Under the pieces are notes generated by a model. That model was not told the origin of the DNA. It was given only the letters and a program-made list of their open reading frames with translations, and ran no database searches. From a virus: 24,266 nucleotides of DNA. Below, piece by piece: positions 9,742 to 24,266 of the stretch. The stretch spans positions 1-24,266 of IMG/VR virus record IMGVR_UViG_3300033148_000061; one strand, 5' to 3'. The position numbers and the translations under genes are program-made. Positions within the stretch are counted from its first letter, which is position 1. Every line of letters starts with the position of its first letter.

Positions 9742-10613
9742 TAGGGCCTCATTGATTCTTCGTTTTCTGGTTTACCGTCCCAGTTTTTAGTTAAGTAGTC
9801 TAATCCTAGTTCGTGGAAGTAATAAATGTTCCTACAAAATTCTCTTGGATAATAATTAATAGGATCATTGTGACTTTTATCTAGTTCCTCTTGATTGTAT
9901 GGAGGAATGATTAATATGTCATGTAATGTTGCACAATCTTTTTCAACAACTTCATATGTATAACGTTTATTAAATTCTTTCCAAATATATTCGGCTAAGT
10001 GTTTATGCCCTGCTTCAGTTTCATGTTGACAGATTGTTTTTTCAAATTCTTGTGTAACCATATTAAAATTTTCTAACTTACCATTGTGTAGATAAAGTTC
10101 ATTTTTAAGTATTGTTTCATTATCTTCTATCCATTGCTCTGTTTTACCATTACAACAAGGCATGTAATCAGTCATTAGATGTGGAACATGATGTGTATCT
10201 AACAAATGATTAATACTAGCCCAAATATGTAATTTTTCTTGTTCTGCTAAACAATAATAAAAGTCATCCGATTCTCTGATTATTTCTTTTTCTACTTGAG
10301 CCATATGACCTTCTCCACCTACGATAACATATCGATTTTCAGAAGATATATAGGCTTCTCTGCGTGATGCTTGGGAGTATGCATGTATATAAAAAGGATT
10401 ATTGTCGTTAAACAAATCTTTATAAAAGTAACGATTAGTTCTGCGAAAAATTGCTTGATTGCCTTGTCCAGGAACTGCAAGATTTACTAAAGGGACACCC
10501 AATCGTTTCGCAATGATCGATGCCCACCCATCTTTAATTGGGTCTGAGATACCATGTCCATATGTGTAACTACAGCCGTTAACAACTAAGTGTGATATTT
10601 GTATGTGCTTCAA
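9741..10613 (-). CDS. SGNH/GDSL-hydrolase-like protein (TTG start)
   Basis: 290 aa from a TTG start. Block I is VVNGCSYTYGHG, with Ser15 where the nucleophile of GDSL/SGNH hydrolases lies. Block II-like NLAVPGQGNQ supplies the Gly and Asn. A distal AGHKHLAEYIW segment has a His suited to block V, although the usual DxxH Asp is not clear. The family cleaves esters, including acyl groups on glycans or lipids; the substrate here is unknown and activity is not certain. An open frame runs up to an ATG at 10640, but that would overlap the IscA-like gene by 31 nt without reason. The TTG at 10613 overlaps the IscA-like stop as TTGA (4 nt) and has GGAGAG upstream. It resembles conserved phage proteins that begin with the GCS(Y/F)T motif near the N-terminus. 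Confidence 0.7.
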   Translation of the reverse strand: MKHIQISHLVVNGCSYTYGHGISDPIKDGWASIIAKRLGVPLVNLAVPGQGNQAIFRRTNRYFYKDLFNDNNPFYIHAYSQASRREAYISSENRYVIVGGEGHMAQVEKEIIRESDDFYYCLAEQEKLHIWASINHLLDTHHVPHLMTDYMPCCNGKTEQWIEDNETILKNELYLHNGKLENFNMVTQEFEKTICQHETEAGHKHLAEYIWKEFNKRYTYEVVEKDCATLHDILIIPPYNQEELDKSHNDPINYYPREFCRNIYYFHELGLDYLTKNWDGKPENEESMRP

Positions 10614-10927
10614 ATTGTAAAACTCTCTCCGCAACCACAACGTGCTTTCTCTAAAGGATTGATGAATTCAAAACCTTCATTCAAACCTTGCTTTTGATAG
10701 TCTACTGTGATTCCTTCAAGTATGCTGTTAGCCTTAGGATCTATTAATATAGAAAATCCGTCGTACTCATTAATGATGTCTTCGTCATTAATAGCATCTG
10801 CGAATTCAAGTTTATAAGCATATCCACTACAGCCAGTAGTTTCAATACCTATACGAATTCCGATACCTTTACCACGGTTTTCTAAATGGTCTTTAATTTT
10901 TGTTTTTGCTATATCTGTGACTTCCAT
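10610..10927 (-). CDS. A-type iron-sulfur carrier (IscA/SufA/ErpA family)
   Basis: 105 aa, the usual family length. Cys33 in TTGCSGYAYKLEF and the C-terminal pair Cys97/Cys99 in RCGCGESF are the three conserved ligands for a [2Fe-2S] or [4Fe-4S] cluster or iron. The family passes Fe-S clusters from scaffold proteins to apo-enzymes in the cytoplasm. Marine phages carry such genes as auxiliary metabolic genes, presumably to keep host or phage Fe-S enzymes active during infection. The stop overlaps the TTG of the SGNH-like gene. Two promoter-like elements precede it: a sigma70-like one (10954-10982) and a late-type box TTAAATA ending 5 nt before the ATG. No Shine-Dalgarno lies at the normal distance. 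Confidence 0.9.
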   Translation of the reverse strand: MEVTDIAKTKIKDHLENRGKGIGIRIGIETTGCSGYAYKLEFADAINDEDIINEYDGFSILIDPKANSILEGITVDYQKQGLNEGFEFINPLEKARCGCGESFTI

Positions 10928-16724: not shown

Positions 16725-18140
16725 TTATTTGTCTTTCAAAGTATTAAGTAATGATTTTAATTTTGTACTTTGTACATCACCATTGACTCTTTTTTCTTCA
16801 GGCTCTACTTGATTTTCGACTATTTCATTAGTCTGCCCTACTTGTGATGTAGTTTTAAACTTATCCATAATTGCTTGTGCAGATGGTTGTGATGTATTAT
16901 GTGTTGGTGCGTTAGTTCCTGGGTCTGTAATACGCAATGTCTCAATATCAAATGCTAATTCGACTTTTTGTCCTACCCCTGAACTTGATCTTGTCTTCAT
17001 TAACTGAATTTGATACTGACCGCGTTCTCTCATGCTACGTGACGTAAAGATACCGAATACGTTGTCTGCTGTATTGATTTTTGATATACCACCTGAGATA
17101 TGACTGTGATCAAATTCAATTTCATCAACTGAACTTCTGTTTAACTGTGATGCAGTTACGAATACTAAATCAAACTCTTTTGCCAAGTTACGTAATTCTT
17201 CTGATACATACTTGTCTTTAACAAACAAGTCACTAGGACTTACTTTAGCACTTACTGGCATTAACAAATCCAAATAGTCAACACACATAAAGTCTAATTT
17301 CATGCCTGTTTGTATCTGTAATTCTTTAACATATGCTCTCAAATCATTTACTGTAGACTGAGCCGGCATATATTTAATTCTAAAGTTACCTGCGGCTTTT
17401 TGTTTCATCTTAACTTTCATTTCAACATTGTCTAAGTCTTTAAATACTTCCTTAGACTTGGTATCAGTCAACATAGAATCAATACGCATTGCTGATAGTT
17501 CTTCACTCAATTCTAGTGTGATGTACACCCCTGATAAGCCTTGCTCTACCCAATTGACTGATAGATTTTGCATAAACAATGACTTACCTGAACCCGAACC
17601 CCCAGCAAAGATTTGCAGTTCGCCCTTATTAAAACCCCCATAGAGTTTTTGATCTAAGCAGGGCCAACCACATGATACTTGACCATTACTAGATTTAAGA
17701 TGCATAAGACGAGCCCTAGGATCTTCAAAGTAATCGATACCTAAGTCTCTTTGTAATGATATTTGTACTGCATCTTTGATTAACTTTTCAACAGGATCAT
17801 AGTCACCTTTCTCTAGCAAGTCTGCTGATGACATGATTGCTCTTTCTAATTCTTGTCTACGAGTAAACGATTCAAATTCAGTCATAAACCAGTCGTAATG
17901 ACCTTCATCCATACCCTCGACCATGTCGATTGTTTCGCCTGTTGTTGCTTTGATTTGTGTAGAGTCCGGCAATATTTTATATTGCTCTGAATGTTCTCTC
18001 ATAAATTCTGCAACAGGTCTTAATCTTCTATCAAAGTTTTCTGCGTTAAAGATATTATTGACCCTAACAAACAACTCTGCGTTTGTTATCATCATTCTTA
18101 AGAACAATTCTTGTACTTCTACGTTAAATTCTTTTAGCAA
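16725..18140 (-). CDS. 41: Replicative DNA helicase, T4 gp41-like (DnaB family)
   Basis: 471 aa, close to T4 gp41 (475 aa). An N-terminal helical domain (1-150) is followed by a RecA-like core: Walker A GGSGSGKS (180-187), then ITLELSEE, Walker B FMCVDYLD (284-291), TASQLNRSS (329-337, the Gln-bearing motif H3) and a loop HISGGISK. The enzyme is the hexameric 5'-3' helicase that unwinds the replication fork and works with the primase. The C-terminal 60 or so residues are polar and probably flexible. The start is a TTG at 18140, inside the last codons of the primase gene (17-nt overlap), with Shine-Dalgarno GAGGA 6-7 nt upstream. Primase and helicase are thus one coupled unit. Confidence 0.93.
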   Translation of the reverse strand: MLKEFNVEVQELFLRMMITNAELFVRVNNIFNAENFDRRLRPVAEFMREHSEQYKILPDSTQIKATTGETIDMVEGMDEGHYDWFMTEFESFTRRQELERAIMSSADLLEKGDYDPVEKLIKDAVQISLQRDLGIDYFEDPRARLMHLKSSNGQVSCGWPCLDQKLYGGFNKGELQIFAGGSGSGKSLFMQNLSVNWVEQGLSGVYITLELSEELSAMRIDSMLTDTKSKEVFKDLDNVEMKVKMKQKAAGNFRIKYMPAQSTVNDLRAYVKELQIQTGMKLDFMCVDYLDLLMPVSAKVSPSDLFVKDKYVSEELRNLAKEFDLVFVTASQLNRSSVDEIEFDHSHISGGISKINTADNVFGIFTSRSMRERGQYQIQLMKTRSSSGVGQKVELAFDIETLRITDPGTNAPTHNTSQPSAQAIMDKFKTTSQVGQTNEIVENQVEPEEKRVNGDVQSTKLKSLLNTLKDK

Positions 18141-19098
18141 TTTTATTCCTCATAACTTCTACTTTTATTTTACTGTTTGTAGCAGAGTCTAATATACTTA
18201 GTAATGTATTCAGACGACCATATTTAATTACAGCATCATTTGCATCTTTAATATCTTCTGACCAGTTGGGTAAAGACACATCATAACCTAGTTCTAATGC
18301 TCTTTCACAGATGCCTAAACCTGTTTGATCCTGATCAGGAACAACAATAACACGTTTACCCAATTTGTTAATTACAGCAACTTGATTGTCATTAATTGTA
18401 TCATGTGTCAATGCTAATCCATTCATTGAAATCGCATCAAAGATACCTTCAAATACTAATACAACTTGCCATTCTTCTTTTTGTAAATCAACACCAAACA
18501 CATATCCTTGTTGCTGATCATTTATGAACTTAGGATTTCTGTCGTCCATAAATCTAATTGTACTACCAACAACTTTGTTTTCATATGTATAAGGGATAAT
18601 TATACCTTCCGCTTGTCTACCTTGTGCTGTAGGGTTAACCATAAAAGGATAATCATTATGTTGTAATCCTCTTTTGTTCAAGTAATCAATATACACTTGA
18701 TGATCTTTGTTTGCAGTATAAATCAACTCACCTTCTGGCATTGGTTGTTCTTTAAACTTCGGCAACTTAATTTGTTTCTTTTTACGTAAAATAGAATCTA
18801 ACAAATCTTTGTGCTGAATAGAATGCAAAGACCATTTATTAATATCTTGGTCTGGCATATGACACCACGTTAAGAAGTTACGTGTACGTTTGCTAATTGC
18901 TCTACCTAATTTAAAGCCACACTTAAAGCCACAATTAAAACAATGATATTGCCAATCATCTCCGTCTGCTTTAATACCCCCTCGCATTCTTTTATCAGGG
19001 TTATGCCCATTGTGCTGACAACAAGGCGCATTGAATGAAGTCCATCCACTCTGCGTCTGTTTCTTTTTGCCAGGGACAATCGTAAGTATATCAAACAT
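18124..19098 (-). CDS. 61: DNA primase, T4 gp61-like
   Basis: 324 aa, close to T4 gp61 (342 aa). The N-terminal zinc-binding region has APCCQHNGH (C26, C27) and YHCFNCGFK (C53, C56). The middle has RGLQHNDYPFMVNPTAQGR and a central EGIIIPYTY strand. The TOPRIM core shows LVFEGIFDAIS (catalytic Glu) and VIVVPDQDQTG (DxD). It makes the short RNA primers for lagging-strand synthesis as part of the gp41-gp61 primosome. The start MFDILTIVPGKKK fits marine homologues. There is no Shine-Dalgarno; a TATAAT box ends 7 nt before the ATG, so the transcript may be leaderless or nearly so. The C-terminus overlaps the helicase start. Confidence 0.92.
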   Translation of the reverse strand: MFDILTIVPGKKKQTQSGWTSFNAPCCQHNGHNPDKRMRGGIKADGDDWQYHCFNCGFKCGFKLGRAISKRTRNFLTWCHMPDQDINKWSLHSIQHKDLLDSILRKKKQIKLPKFKEQPMPEGELIYTANKDHQVYIDYLNKRGLQHNDYPFMVNPTAQGRQAEGIIIPYTYENKVVGSTIRFMDDRNPKFINDQQQGYVFGVDLQKEEWQVVLVFEGIFDAISMNGLALTHDTINDNQVAVINKLGKRVIVVPDQDQTGLGICERALELGYDVSLPNWSEDIKDANDAVIKYGRLNTLLSILDSATNSKIKVEVMRNKIAKRI

Positions 19099-19148: not shown

Positions 19149-19868
19149 TTATCTTGCCAAAATAGTTACAATGTTACCCACATTTGCTTCAAATTTAACT
19201 TTGATAAACGGATGATAACCGCTGATAGTATACCCTATAGTTCCAGACTCACTAGCACCATTTGCGGCATTGCCATATCGATACGAATTGATATCATAGA
19301 ATCCAGAATCAACGAGAGTAGAACCTTGTAGTGTTACGTTACCAACATAATCTTTGTAGTCAATTGATGTAGTAAGTACAGGATTGTCTTGTGTATTAAT
19401 AATACTTGAGTAAAATGTTACTGCTTCAGAGTTTGCATTTGCATTTGCATTTGGTAAAGTTTCATCACTGGGTATTGTAACTAGTTGTGAAGGAACATAT
19501 GAAGGGAGAATAGAGTCAACTATGTTTAAGTCTCCTCTTGCTCCTGCTTTAGAATCTACAAATACAGGTAAATTAAGATTACCACTTGGCCATTCTAATG
19601 AATAATAACATTGTTGTGATTCAATGTTTTCAATTTCTGCGGCAGTCGTATTCAATTGAAAAATACCATTGACATCGAACACTGGAGTCAATGCTTTTCT
19701 TAAAAGGATTTCGGTACCATCTGAATTAATTGCTCTAAAAGATATTTGTTGATTTGCTGTAGCAATTGATGATAGATCCACAGGCTTCTGTTCCTGATTC
19801 AGAAACTGAAACTGTAATTGATTGTCAACGCCTTTATTTAACGTTAATGGTTTTGAATAAACTGGCAT
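19149..19868 (-). CDS. Virion structural protein (probable)
   Basis: 239 aa from the ATG at 19868, which has Shine-Dalgarno GAGGAAA. The start MPVYSKPLTLNKGVDNQLQF with FLNQEQKPVDLSSI resembles the first strands of BppU-like baseplate/tail N-terminal domains and of marine phage structural proteins. The rest is beta-rich and low in charge (ISFRAINSDGTEILLRKAL, GYTISGYHPFIKVKF). The frame is open upstream, and a GTG at 19949 with AGGAGA 9 nt before it could add 27 residues (VYTYTVRQVVVVL). I prefer the ATG because of its own strong Shine-Dalgarno and the familiar N-terminus. It has a late-type box at 19973 and a leader of about 99 nt. Confidence 0.65.
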   Translation of the reverse strand: MPVYSKPLTLNKGVDNQLQFQFLNQEQKPVDLSSIATANQQISFRAINSDGTEILLRKALTPVFDVNGIFQLNTTAAEIENIESQQCYYSLEWPSGNLNLPVFVDSKAGARGDLNIVDSILPSYVPSQLVTIPSDETLPNANANANSEAVTFYSSIINTQDNPVLTTSIDYKDYVGNVTLQGSTLVDSGFYDINSYRYGNAANGASESGTIGYTISGYHPFIKVKFEANVGNIVTILAR

Positions 19869-19972
19869 ATATTTCCTCGGGCTTGTGCCTGACAGAACCA
19901 CAACGACTTGTCTGACTGTATATGTATATACTGATGTAGTGTAAGACACAAATTTTAATCTCCTATAGAATA

Positions 19973-19980
19973 TATTTATC
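19973..19980 (-). promoter_or_regulatory. Late-type promoter box GATAAATA
   Basis: Minus strand, +1 predicted at 19967. The leader of about 99 nt contains GTATA/TATAC and TTGTG/CACAA small hairpins before the Shine-Dalgarno of the structural gene at 19868. Confidence 0.5.
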
Positions 19981-20024
19981 TCTACGTGTGTCAACCAAGA
20001 AATTTGACCATTTTTTTCAACGTA

Positions 20025-20031
20025 CTAAATA
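20025..20031 (+). promoter_or_regulatory. Late-type promoter box CTAAATA
   Basis: Plus strand, 10 nt before the ATG at 20042, so +1 would leave a leader of only 5 nt. No Shine-Dalgarno is present. Confidence 0.45.
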
Positions 20032-20041
20032 CTTTACAGAT

Positions 20042-20434
20042 ATGACAGATTCAAAGAAACCAATCGACTTTTTTCAAAAATTAACAGAGTCACACCCCTT
20101 CATTTCAGTATTACAATATGCAGGACAAGACTTTGTGGGTATTGTTCAGAACCGTGATGATCTTGTTACAACTATCTATGATTATGGTGCAATAATCGAT
20201 GCAGATAAACGACTTAAGTTTTTAGAGTTAGGTGATATCTGGTGGTGGGAATCTAATCGTCAAATACCTATTCACTTATTTTTAAAAGCAGAGTGGGCAA
20301 TGTTCAAGCCCTTCTTACGAACATTCAACAATAAGTCATTGACATTATTACATGGACCTATTGTCAGTATGACTGACTTTCAAAAGAAAAGAGTTAAACG
20401 AAAGTCTATTACTTTAGTGAAGCGGTCTTACTAA
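20042..20434 (+). CDS. Conserved hypothetical protein of marine T4-like phages
   Basis: 130 aa from ATG 20042 (MTDSKKPIDFFQKLTESHPF). A GTG at 19988 in the same frame would add 18 residues but has no support. The order of strands (FISVLQYAGQDFVGIVQNRD, then TTIYDYGAI), the segment FLELGDIWWWESNRQIPI and the basic C-terminus KKRVKRKSITLVKR match a family I recall in marine T4-like phages. Its function is not known. It is the only plus-strand gene in the right half of the window. It converges on the peptide deformylase gene, and their 3' ends overlap by 26 nt, so the two mRNAs would be complementary there. Confidence 0.7.
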   Translation: MTDSKKPIDFFQKLTESHPFISVLQYAGQDFVGIVQNRDDLVTTIYDYGAIIDADKRLKFLELGDIWWWESNRQIPIHLFLKAEWAMFKPFLRTFNNKSLTLLHGPIVSMTDFQKKRVKRKSITLVKRSY

Positions 20435-20966: not shown

Positions 20967-21238
20967 TATCCCCTACTTAAATATTTGTCTCTTAATGCAT
21001 CACCTCTCAGTGGTGTGCCAATTATTTCTGTCTTGCCTGATACAATATATTGTCGATGAACCGTACTATCATTATATTCTACATCTAACACACGTAAATC
21101 ATCACCTGTTCTATCTGGATTTGTTTCATACCACAGTGACGTAAATGAATGTGCATGAACGGCCTTAACGCCTTTAGCCCATTCTTCGGCCTCTAATAGT
21201 TCTCTTTGTCGTTGTACGACTTCATCATATTGTCCCAT
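20966..21238 (-). CDS. Hypothetical protein
   Basis: 90 aa, not recognised. A helical N-terminus (YDEVVQRQRELLEAEEW) is followed by a short beta-rich part with a regular look (LRVLDVEYNDSTVHRQYIVS, then GTPLRGDALRDKYL). The start overlaps the end of the DNA polymerase III-like gene by 14 nt, and its stop overlaps the deformylase start by 1 nt, so it is made together with them. No metal-binding, membrane or catalytic motif is seen. Confidence 0.65.
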   Translation of the reverse strand: MGQYDEVVQRQRELLEAEEWAKGVKAVHAHSFTSLWYETNPDRTGDDLRVLDVEYNDSTVHRQYIVSGKTEIIGTPLRGDALRDKYLSRG

Positions 21239-21806
21239 CCTTCTCCTCTAATAAGTTCATATGCACTACAACAAGATGTGCATATGCGACAGCATGTGAT
21301 TTTTTAAACACATACCCCGTATTGTTATCAATCCATACACTATTACTTATGTCTTTATATGTATGACCAATAAGATTTCTCTTTGCTGGACGAATCACAG
21401 CAAGAAACATTGCCAATCTAGGAATACTATTAATGGGCTCAGGCATCTTTTGCATAACATCATATTGTTTGTTAAGATGTATTAGTTTTTCTACAAAGTC
21501 CCGCTCTTTCAATCGTTCCCAGTTTGGTTCTGCCATTAGACTTATCAAATGCAACTCGTCTTGTACATGTTGATAGACGTTTACATTCAATAAGTCTAAC
21601 TTGAAGTACCCTCTTTGATCTGCTTCTTTATAATCTAAAGAACACATATCATTTACAGGATCGTAGGGTACATCTGTTATGTATACGCCAGTTGGATGTT
21701 TTTTCATAGGCTGTACATCACGCATTGCCGCAGGAACATGCTTAATCAATTTCAATAATTGAGTTCTGTCCCCAAAGTCTATGTCAATGTCTGACTGTAT
21801 ACTCAT
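21225..21806 (-). CDS. Miniature DNA polymerase III alpha (DnaE/PolC, C-family)-like protein
   Basis: 193 aa. The order of motifs matches the palm and fingers of C-family polymerases, with the intervening parts removed. SDIDIDFGDR (5-14) matches PDFDVDF, with D6 and D8 at the places of E. coli DnaE D401 and D403. HPTGVYI (37-43) matches HAGGVVI. SLDYKEADQRGYFKLDLLNV (56-75) matches the FDKSDVEYAGLVKFDFLGL segment, with D71 at the place of D555. LAMFLAVIRPAK (131-142) matches the LVALFRPGP region. GYVFKKSHAVAYAHL (164-178) matches GYGFNKSHSAAYAL. The full enzyme is over 1000 aa, so the PHP, beta-binding, OB and tau-binding parts are missing. Polymerase activity is doubtful; regulatory, decoy or relic roles are possible. 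The start overlaps the exonuclease stop by 4 nt (ATGA). Confidence 0.7.
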   Translation of the reverse strand: MSIQSDIDIDFGDRTQLLKLIKHVPAAMRDVQPMKKHPTGVYITDVPYDPVNDMCSLDYKEADQRGYFKLDLLNVNVYQHVQDELHLISLMAEPNWERLKERDFVEKLIHLNKQYDVMQKMPEPINSIPRLAMFLAVIRPAKRNLIGHTYKDISNSVWIDNNTGYVFKKSHAVAYAHLVVVHMNLLEEKDGTI

Positions 21807-22345
21807 TTAAGTCCTGCTTGTTTAAGTTTCTGATATGCACGTTGCACAACGACTGCTTGATGTTCTGCATCTTCTACAGCCTTGTGAGACGTTACTGCTT
21901 GACCATCTTTAAGAGACACATTACAAAGATCATAAATTGTTCTTGTATCTCTAATAGTATAGAAGGGCCAAGGTATCGACATTTCTAATTGCCTAAAGGC
22001 GTTTTCAGCCACAACAACATCAAAACCAGCACCATTACTCCAAACTGCTCTACGGTTCCAACAGAATTTATAGAGTTTATCCATAGCATCTTTAAACGAG
22101 ATTCTATCGTTGTCGCCCATTGCTTCATTGATTGCTTCTTCACTTTGTTCTCCCCACCACCTTAGTGTATCTGGATTTATGTGTCTATTAAAATCTTCAG
22201 TTTGTGAATCTATTTCAGGACGTAGTTCTAGTTTTTCTGCGACTCCATTACCCATAGGATCAAAACGAACAGCACCGATTGTTAGAATAACACAATCAGG
22301 ATCTGTACTCAGAGTCTCCATATCTATCATTACGTCATTTGCCAT
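21803..22345 (-). CDS. DEDDh 3'-5' exonuclease (DnaQ fold, DexA/Rv2179c-like)
   Basis: 180 aa, one domain. VMIDMETLS supplies D8 and E10, WSNGAGFDVVV supplies D109, and HKAVEDAEHQA supplies H154 and D159. This is the complete two-metal DEDDh site. The W-rich middle (INPDTLRWWGEQSEEA) is typical of the Rv2179c-like/T4 DexA-type branch. It removes nucleotides from 3' ends of DNA or RNA. T4 DexA is a known relative with a non-essential role. Here the gene is coupled through ATGA to the miniature PolIII alpha-like gene, recalling the epsilon-alpha pair of bacterial PolIII, but no clamp-binding motif is obvious. The start overlaps the end of the oxygenase gene by 11 nt. Confidence 0.88.
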   Translation of the reverse strand: MANDVMIDMETLSTDPDCVILTIGAVRFDPMGNGVAEKLELRPEIDSQTEDFNRHINPDTLRWWGEQSEEAINEAMGDNDRISFKDAMDKLYKFCWNRRAVWSNGAGFDVVVAENAFRQLEMSIPWPFYTIRDTRTIYDLCNVSLKDGQAVTSHKAVEDAEHQAVVVQRAYQKLKQAGLK

Positions 22346-23129
22346 TACTACTCCATACGTTATCTTCGTTTCTTATTTCTACTATTATATCACTTCTGAG
22401 GTAATTAATCAATAGAATGGAACGTTTTTTGGGTAAATGCAATGGCATAGTAGAATGCATCAAACGAGTATTATAAAACAAGATACTACCTTTTGGCATA
22501 TCATACTGTTCTGCATTTTCTAAAAAGTATTCATCATGCAAACCTTCATAGCAATCTTGTATATCCCAATCTTTCTGATGACTGTAAGGGATAAGTCCAG
22601 TTGCTCCTGTGTCTTTGTCTAAGTCATCAAGTGGAATGATAACTTGTATGCCACAGACATCATTGTTTTCTCTTTTATTATATTTTTTAAATCGATGCGG
22701 TGTATCAATGTGAGGTCCTACCCATCTGCTTGGACCATTGATTGTTACGATATCACTTGCATAGAATACTGCATCATCTAAATGTTTGCTAATTTCAGGA
22801 TAGATAAGTTCATGTATCTCTTTTACTTCGTCCCAATCATCTGTAAGTTGACTCCACCATACAGCAATGCCAAACAGTTTTTTACATGCCTCTGCTTCTG
22901 CATACTGCTTCTTATGTGTGGATGCTCGTACAGGGTAGAGTTCATCTTTTCTATCGTTTATACGTTGAATAAGGTCGTCTGATATGACATTCTTTTTGAT
23001 GTCAAAGCCACGACCTTCATGTGAAAGTTTAGATACTTGACCAAAGATACGATCATAGTTAGCGGCATAGGCTTTTTGATTCTCACCCTTTCTAGGTGCG
23101 GAACCTTTTCCACCGTGCCATTGACTCAT
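22335..23129 (-). CDS. 2-oxoglutarate/Fe(II) oxygenase, PhyH-like, with N-terminal HGGKGS phage motif
   Basis: 264 aa from the ATG at 23129, chosen because it overlaps the upstream stop as ATGA and has GAGGTG 4-5 nt upstream; the ATG at 23150 is not needed. The double-stranded beta-helix site is present: VGPHIDTPHR (H140, D142), LDKDTGATGLIPYSHQ, and FYNTRLMHSTMPL (H225) followed by KKRSILLINYLR (R236, 2-oxoglutarate contact). Such enzymes hydroxylate small molecules, lipids, proteins or nucleobases; the substrate is unknown. Residues 1-30 (MSQWHGGKGSAPRK, then YAANYDRIFG) look like a separate short phage protein type joined to the enzyme. It overlaps the DEDDh gene by 11 nt. Confidence 0.87.
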   Translation of the reverse strand: MSQWHGGKGSAPRKGENQKAYAANYDRIFGQVSKLSHEGRGFDIKKNVISDDLIQRINDRKDELYPVRASTHKKQYAEAEACKKLFGIAVWWSQLTDDWDEVKEIHELIYPEISKHLDDAVFYASDIVTINGPSRWVGPHIDTPHRFKKYNKRENNDVCGIQVIIPLDDLDKDTGATGLIPYSHQKDWDIQDCYEGLHDEYFLENAEQYDMPKGSILFYNTRLMHSTMPLHLPKKRSILLINYLRSDIIVEIRNEDNVWSSNGK

Positions 23130-23455
23130 TGCCACCTCGTTTCTAGCCACACACGTTCTTCATCACCTGCTAGATATATTCTACGTTGCTTATGATCTTC
23201 TTCATTAGACCAACACCAGTTTTCATTTAGTGTATCGTATGTACTGTCATTGTATTGTGCAAGGCTCATAAAGTTTGACAGTTCATGCACCCTGTCATAA
23301 TCTTTCATATCACAACTAGGTCCCCATGTATCCCAACACCAATCTCGTACTTTATTAAAATTTATGATAGAAGACAAATCAGAATGTGCTAGACTTAGGA
23401 GGAGTTTTAGTAACACAACACCACTTAAACATGTCATGTCCTTTCCATCGACCAT
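23126..23455 (-). CDS. Small Trp-rich conserved protein, start uncertain (possible 5' frameshift)
   Basis: The part from about FNKVRDWCWDTWGPSC to the end (NENWCWSNEEDHKQRRIYLA, then ERVWLETRWQ) looks like a real conserved small protein with many Trp. The first 30 or so codons (LLKLLLSLAHS) look like out-of-frame translation. In another frame an ATG at 23432 has a good Shine-Dalgarno (GGAAAGG, 7 nt) and encodes MFKWCCVTKTPPKSSTF before a stop. Either the gene starts further in or a frame change lies near 23385-23400. The stop overlaps the oxygenase start (ATGA). Function unknown. Confidence 0.5.
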   Translation of the reverse strand: MVDGKDMTCLSGVVLLKLLLSLAHSDLSSIINFNKVRDWCWDTWGPSCDMKDYDRVHELSNFMSLAQYNDSTYDTLNENWCWSNEEDHKQRRIYLAGDEERVWLETRWQ

Positions 23456-23491: not shown

Positions 23492-24202
23492 TCAATATCC
23501 GGCTTGCCTCAATAACTCTTTTACTTCATTGACGGCATCTTCATCACGTTTAAATTTAATTGCCCACTTTTCAGGATCAATGTATTCTAATACCATCTTT
23601 TGTTGTACTTCATCTAACTTACTTAAAAACTCTAAACCAGACTCACTATGATACAAAGACCAAGGCGATACTCTTCCTGTTGTGACTTCATAACAGATTC
23701 TGTTTGGAGCACCATATCTAAATGCATCTTTACTTTCTATCTGATCATCTTTACAAATTTCGATAAGAGTCTCCATGCTACGAGCAATTGCATCTAAAGC
23801 ATTTTCTTGTCTCAGATATTCAATAATAAACTTAGTGTAGTTTTTATCACTATTCCAACTATCAATTCTAATTTGATTTCTAAGCAACCAATCTGCATAA
23901 CGATTGACATTAATACATCTTGTGTTAACACAGTAATGACCGAATTTGACAAAGGCTAGATAATAAGAACTTTTAGTAAAGTCTATATAAGTCTTTTGCT
24001 TTTTGCTAGAAGTGTTTTGTGCATAGAAGTTTAACCATGCGTTGAAACCTATACGATTACCCTTAAGGTTCTTATCGCCATATCTGCGTTTCTGTTCGCA
24101 AAGATGTTTATCAATAGTACTTTCTTTTGCAAAACTTCTGCCGCAAAATTCACAACCAAACTTTTTAGTTGCCAAGTTCTTTTTCGTATTCTTCGATTTC
24201 AT
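23492..24202 (-). CDS. C2HC zinc-finger conserved phage protein
   Basis: 236 aa from ATG 24202. A single zinc finger is near the N-terminus: CEFCGRSF, then H33 and C35 in DKHLCEQKRR (C-x2-C-x12-H-x-C). After it come a basic linker and a helical region (FNAWLNFYAQNT, then SSYYLAFVKFGHYCVN), and a C-terminal acidic helix. I recall this family in marine T4-like phages, of unknown function; DNA or RNA binding is inferred from the finger. The start is unsure: ATG 24202 and GTG 24220 lack a good Shine-Dalgarno. A TTG at 24175 (LATKKFGCEFCG) would overlap the upstream stop by 11 nt and fits the recalled N-terminus, as with the TTG starts at 10613 and 18140. Confidence 0.75.
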   Translation of the reverse strand: MKSKNTKKNLATKKFGCEFCGRSFAKESTIDKHLCEQKRRYGDKNLKGNRIGFNAWLNFYAQNTSSKKQKTYIDFTKSSYYLAFVKFGHYCVNTRCINVNRYADWLLRNQIRIDSWNSDKNYTKFIIEYLRQENALDAIARSMETLIEICKDDQIESKDAFRYGAPNRICYEVTTGRVSPWSLYHSESGLEFLSKLDEVQQKMVLEYIDPEKWAIKFKRDEDAVNEVKELLRQAGY

Positions 24203-24266
24203 TATCTGTAACGAGTTCACTAAGTAATTCTACCTCATCAAATTTTAGTTCTGGAAACTTTTCTGC
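24165..24266 (-). CDS. C-terminus of an unidentified protein (cut by window edge)
   Basis: The last 33 codons of a gene entering from the right edge, ending TAA at 24165. The residues are strongly acidic (FPELKFDEVELLSEL, then IEEYEKELGN). It overlaps the start region of the zinc-finger gene, which fits the overlapping style of this block. Too short to identify. Confidence 0.6.
   Translation of the reverse strand, partial: AEKFPELKFDEVELLSELVTDNEIEEYEKELGN

Follow-up and report, generated by a model that had tools for sequence, protein, structure and literature searches.

Analysis of the window, a stretch of 24,266 nucleotides from a metagenomic viral fragment (IMG/VR record IMGVR_UViG_3300033148_000061), led to an ORF of 193 aa on the minus strand, running from an ATG start at 21,806 to 21,225. 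An ORF check of the region found the plus strand at 21,225–21,806 to be rich in stops, with no open frame. The gene was annotated as the C-terminal half (C half) of a split minimal DNA polymerase III alpha, based on PHROG_11778, on an hhalign comparison with DnaE and on AlphaFold2 and Foldseek. It contains the second half of a Pol-beta-type palm and reduced fingers. The protein begins five residues ahead of DIDIDF (residues 6–11, at 21,774–21,791), which was identified by sequence and conservation and bears the metal-binding D6 and D8 (D401 and D403 in Escherichia coli) as well as D10 (D405). The other four motifs, all on the same strand, were placed by alignment and conservation. These are HPTGVYI (residues 37–43, at 21,678–21,698) in the region of E. 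coli H511, K69-L-D71 (21,594–21,602) with the third metal-binding aspartate (E. coli K553 and D555), RPAK (residues 139–142, at 21,381–21,392; E. coli R639-P640) and FKKSHAVAYA (residues 167–176, at 21,279–21,308), which corresponds to FNKSHSAAYA at 756–765 of E. coli. An earlier note on this DNA had recognized five C-family motifs in the correct order, and this was borne out both by the sequence and by the family and profile matches described below.

Directly upstream lies a DexA-type 3'-5' exonuclease (21,803–22,345, minus strand; PHROG_255, 8.3e-43; PF16473, 2.9e-35), the stop of which overlaps the C-half start by 4 bases (ATGA). A translation-coupled DexA–polymerase pair was considered as a core unit and rejected, because DexA is near the C half in just 36 of the 55 relatives with at least 6 kb of upstream sequence. 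Downstream, the first genes are a 90 aa ORF and a peptide deformylase; next come a 148 aa ORF encoded on the other strand, a conserved protein, and the genes for a Toprim primase and a DnaB/gp41-type helicase, in this order. Among the 57 C-half loci that extend 6 kb or more downstream, the gp61-like DnaG/Toprim-type primase (18,124–19,098, minus strand; PHROG_47, 4e-28; PF13155) and the gp41-like DnaB-type replicative helicase (16,725–18,140, minus strand; PHROG_19, 4e-68; PF03796) are each present in 54. The conserved protein next to the primase (19,149–19,994, minus strand; weak match to PHROG_1084) has no assigned function and occurs in 48 of these loci; its listed TTG start probably makes it too long. 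The opposite-strand gene (19,988–20,434, plus strand; PHROG_11637, 3.5e-29) encodes a conserved protein of about 120–148 aa, again with no assigned function, and is found in 56 of the 57. It lies on the strand opposite the replication block and the C half in all 88 relatives where both were mapped, and in many of them it overlaps the C-half 3' end by some 5–56 bases. On the upstream side, genes for UvsX, UvsY and UvsW are located 3–6 kb from the C half in the reference phages, and a UvsW homologue is present in 48 of the 55 loci. Additionally, a protein with a zinc-finger-like CxxC...HxxxxC start (23,492–24,220, minus strand; PHROG_11058) occurs in 53 of the 55. Two further minus-strand genes of the window were characterized by eye. 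A 105 aa protein at 10,610–10,927 with a C...CGCGESF pattern resembles IscA/HesB-type iron-sulphur carriers (PHROG_17776, annotated as unknown), and a protein with an HxD pattern at 22,335–23,150, for which PHROG gave no match, has the look of a phytanoyl-CoA dioxygenase-type oxygenase.

Concerning the homology of the 193 aa protein, PHROG_11778, a family of 197 positions labelled 'DNA polymerase', matched it with an E-value of 1.5e-53. A direct Pfam search and a single-sequence PDB search gave no matches, and the weak NCBIfam matches are attributable to chance, except possibly DnaE at 0.043. In an HMM-HMM comparison, a kind of test proposed in the earlier note, a C-half profile of 61 sequences aligned by hhalign to a five-sequence DnaE alignment with a score of 55.7 (E-value 1.8e-6), compared with at most 29.7 for 60 column-shuffled profiles and 18.9 for the reversed profile. 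Together with the PHROG_11778 match, this places the motif match to DnaE beyond chance. The alignment pairs H37, K69, D71 and R139 with E. coli H511, K553, D555 and R639. Structure prediction, likewise proposed earlier, pointed the same way: the AlphaFold2 model (pLDDT 91.8, pTM 0.84) had Taq Pol III alpha (2hpi) as its top Foldseek match in the PDB (probability 1.00), and the ten best PDB matches were all Pol III alpha, with E-values of about 0.01–0.5 and TMq of 0.28–0.51. These data support homology of the 193 aa protein to the palm and fingers of Pol III alpha.

The C half was found by tblastn in 90 phage records, nearly all of jumbo phages, including 121Q/PBECO4, GAP32, CBB, RaK2, Paride/PA5oct, Atu_ph07, Phosso and SCTP-2, while a scan of viral contigs gave at least 596 matched stretches encoding a relative. 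Cellular matches were restricted to 13 MAG contigs among 84,980 species genomes, mostly short and from unrelated taxa, which are most simply read as misbinned phage. Twelve residues (D6, D8, D10, H37, G40, K69, D71, R139, P140, K142, F167 and H171) are the same in all 88 homologues compared, and the catalytic residues, including the three aspartates, are also kept in the wider and more divergent set of 61 sequences. The C-half dN/dS is 0.04–0.12 among close relatives; dS exceeds 1, near saturation, for pairs that include the window copy, and pairs between relatives with dS of 0.2–0.85 agree with this range. Purifying selection without decay is thus supported, and the earlier argument from the retention of D6, D8 and D71 holds among homologues; the invariance of D10 had not been mentioned there.

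Comparison with DnaE also revealed what the 193 aa protein is missing. The GRGS nucleotide-binding motif, the absence of which had likewise passed unmentioned, is not in the chain, since the protein starts at the DxD strand and GRGS precedes DxD in DnaE. The spacing from DxDxD to the conserved histidine is 26–38 residues in 95 C-half homologues versus 106 in E. coli, which leaves no room for a thumb, and that from RP to F[KR]xxH is 17–35 residues versus about 115. The finger domain PF17657 had no matches in the 193 aa protein or in eight reference phages, and the finger motif RRxxxKK (E. coli R709/R710) is missing from 93 of 96 C-half copies. The three exceptions (L222–L224) are divergent C halves that carry RRILYAK, a motif not present in other copies, and differ in the residues following DVDIDT; they possibly form a second subfamily. 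The PHP and C-terminal domains of DnaE are missing as well. The 193 aa chain alone is therefore not a catalytically complete DnaE or PolC, as it is without GRGS, thumb and the PF17657/RRxxxKK fingers. With the thumb-length segment and the finger arginine pair gone, binding of dNTP and DNA must differ from that of DnaE; if the enzyme is active, it would have its own mode of gripping both, with the invariant K142 after RP as a candidate substitute.

The GRGS segment was located in a separate protein of about 170 aa (N half), encoded elsewhere in the genomes of the same phages and ending where the C half begins. The N half scores above the Pfam cut-off of PF07733 (model positions 20–95), the family to which the earlier note had looked for a match, and its profile aligns to Taq 385–454 and E. 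coli 322–392, stopping a few residues short of DxD. G136-R-G-S139 and S143 (numbering of locus L108) are invariant in 104 copies, and the model (pLDDT 87.8) has DnaE as all of its nine best PDB matches, with weak E-values. The 'miniature C-family palm' of the earlier note is accordingly upheld in so far as the 193 aa protein is homologous to palm and fingers of Pol III alpha, but this protein holds just the metal-binding second half of that palm, the GRGS half being in a separate protein. A truncated Pol III alpha has been reported for phages CBB (CBB_328) and Atu_ph07 (gp316) (PMC5259590, PMC6102473). Those proteins come from the same phages as the C half, but they hold the GRGS half and are its N-terminal partner (PHROG_11127, while PHROG_11778 is the C half); the C half of CBB is annotated as 'putative membrane protein' or 'DNA polymerase'. 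With respect to neighbours, 72 of 80 N-half loci (L115–L194) include a clamp loader and 79 a GroES-like gene. The two halves thus keep different company, the clamp loader for the N half and the primosome for the C half.

Both halves, as well as a family-B polymerase (PF00136), are encoded in 8/8 reference jumbo phages, and both halves were found in 10/10 Rak2/121Q-type IMG/VR records of 345–378 kb, some of which represent the same phages with different names. Of 14 long records chosen by their N half, 11 contain the C half, which was not found in the remaining three (G038 of 359 kb, G043 and G045), and some C-half contigs have no N half. Fragments or divergence may account for either half appearing without the other. 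Neither the N half nor a family-B polymerase is present in the 24 kb fragment of the window. Its nearest long relative (G001, 89 kb), the C half of which is 87% identical, encodes both halves. A search of the window and 194 loci (195 sequences in all) for fused halves, or for halves adjacent within 10 kb, found none.

A further C-family arrangement was encountered in the viral sequences. About 100 matched viral stretches encode a one-piece DnaE of about 560 aa that is PHP-less and, in L114, keeps the thumb-length linker and RRAFAKK. Examples are located at 1,504–3,180 of L114 (G008) and 5,994–7,715 of L057, with further loci at L246–L325; in L057 it lies about 1.3 kb upstream of the C half. 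Three jumbo-phage records (G008, G023 and G024) encode it together with both split halves and PolB, and the PF17657 search did not detect it in the eight reference phages.

The best explanation, which we consider fairly probable, is that jumbo phages of the T4 supergroup encode a split minimal C-family DNA polymerase, with a two-chain active site and short synthesis, and that the 193 aa protein forms its C-terminal subunit. To judge from the sequences, the enzyme is likely to be a heterodimer of the two halves. The C half would give the metal-binding D6, D8 and D71, K69 and the FKKSH finger element, while the nucleotide-binding GRGS turn, with the helices preceding it, would come from the N half. 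Since the break sits in the loop right before the first catalytic strand, the two halves would associate and rebuild one Pol-beta-type nucleotidyltransferase site. As the dimer is without thumb, PHP, and clamp- and tau-binding regions, it would next act as a distributive enzyme producing short DNA tracts. It may then extend primers or fill gaps at the primase-helicase before the family-B polymerase takes over, a role that is the weakest step of the scheme and is offered tentatively, as possible rather than probable. Primer-extending or gap-filling work beside a replicase is performed by eukaryotic Pol alpha and by DnaE of Bacillus subtilis. The retention of the split pair even alongside a one-piece C-family enzyme argues for a distinct task of the pair. 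The fuller proposal, in which a polymerase with a two-protein site would extend primers or fill gaps beside the family-B replicase and some jumbo phages would run PolB, a split mini-DnaE and a one-piece PHP-less DnaE, is rather doubtful as a whole.

Alternatively, the halves may assemble into a catalytic enzyme whose task is not primer extension at the fork, but repair, recombination-dependent replication or template-independent transfer of nucleotides. The loss of the thumb-length linker and of RRxxxKK favours short or untemplated synthesis, and the UvsX, UvsY and UvsW genes upstream are compatible with such a function; nevertheless, the closest and most constant neighbours of the C half are the primase and the replicative helicase, and that of the N half is the clamp loader, and we regard this alternative as unlikely. 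Far less probable is a catalytically dead adaptor, or the decoy for the host replisome suggested in the earlier note, binding host or phage replisome parts. The small size of the retained regions and the lost thumb and finger arginine pair could mean lost catalysis, but the aspartate triad, K69 and H171 are invariant over deep divergence, as is GRGS in the partner, and a decoy would have no need of both catalytic halves. Moreover, the C-terminal DnaE regions carry the contacts to host clamp and tau, and these, like PHP, are missing here; nothing positive was found in favour of the decoy. Finally, the reading of the gene as the remnant of a decaying dnaE from host or phage, to which the short length relative to 1160 aa might point, was rejected as having practically no chance given the low dN/dS and invariant motifs, the number of stretches with relatives, the constant gene position and break point, and the intact partner.

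If the split pair is active, it would be about the smallest known C-family polymerase (about 360 aa in total), thumbless and with a catalytic site to which two proteins contribute. It would test the requirements of a Pol-beta-type palm for copying DNA, bear on the origin of bacterial replicases and explain why a bacterial-type polymerase core is kept beside PolB in large T4-like phages.

With bacterial DnaE1/Pol III alpha (E. coli DnaE and Taq 2hpi), which supplied the top Foldseek matches, the C half shares the palm DxD...KxD, RP and FxKSH in the same order. DnaE1 is, however, a single chain of about 1160 aa that also includes PHP, clamp-binding and C-terminal domains, a thumb and complete fingers; the C half keeps just the second half of its palm and a portion of its fingers. 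The one-piece phage DnaE, found in some of the same jumbo phages, likewise has the C-family palm and fingers but in a single chain, and it accompanies the split pair without replacing it. No experimental work on a split mini-polymerase was found in the literature. A genome comparison by Iyer et al. (2021; Viruses 13:63, PMC7824862) describes group 2.2 jumbo phages in which a minimal, split Pol III alpha occurs together with a family-B polymerase, so that a miniature C-family palm is less unexpected than the earlier note had assumed. That system and the 193 aa protein share a C-terminal half binding Mg2+ and template, a distant partner gene and a family-B polymerase in the genome. Specifically, the 193 aa protein starts at the break before DxD and the third aspartate and contains these Mg2+-binding residues, a separate and distant N half is encoded in 8/8 reference phages and in G001, and the family-B polymerase is present in the same 8/8. 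The main text of that paper lists no accession for its C-terminal protein; by description and by phage group, the 193 aa protein belongs to this split minimal Pol III alpha. To that description, the present analysis adds the losses of linker and finger motif, the extra one-piece enzyme and the statistics on neighbouring genes.
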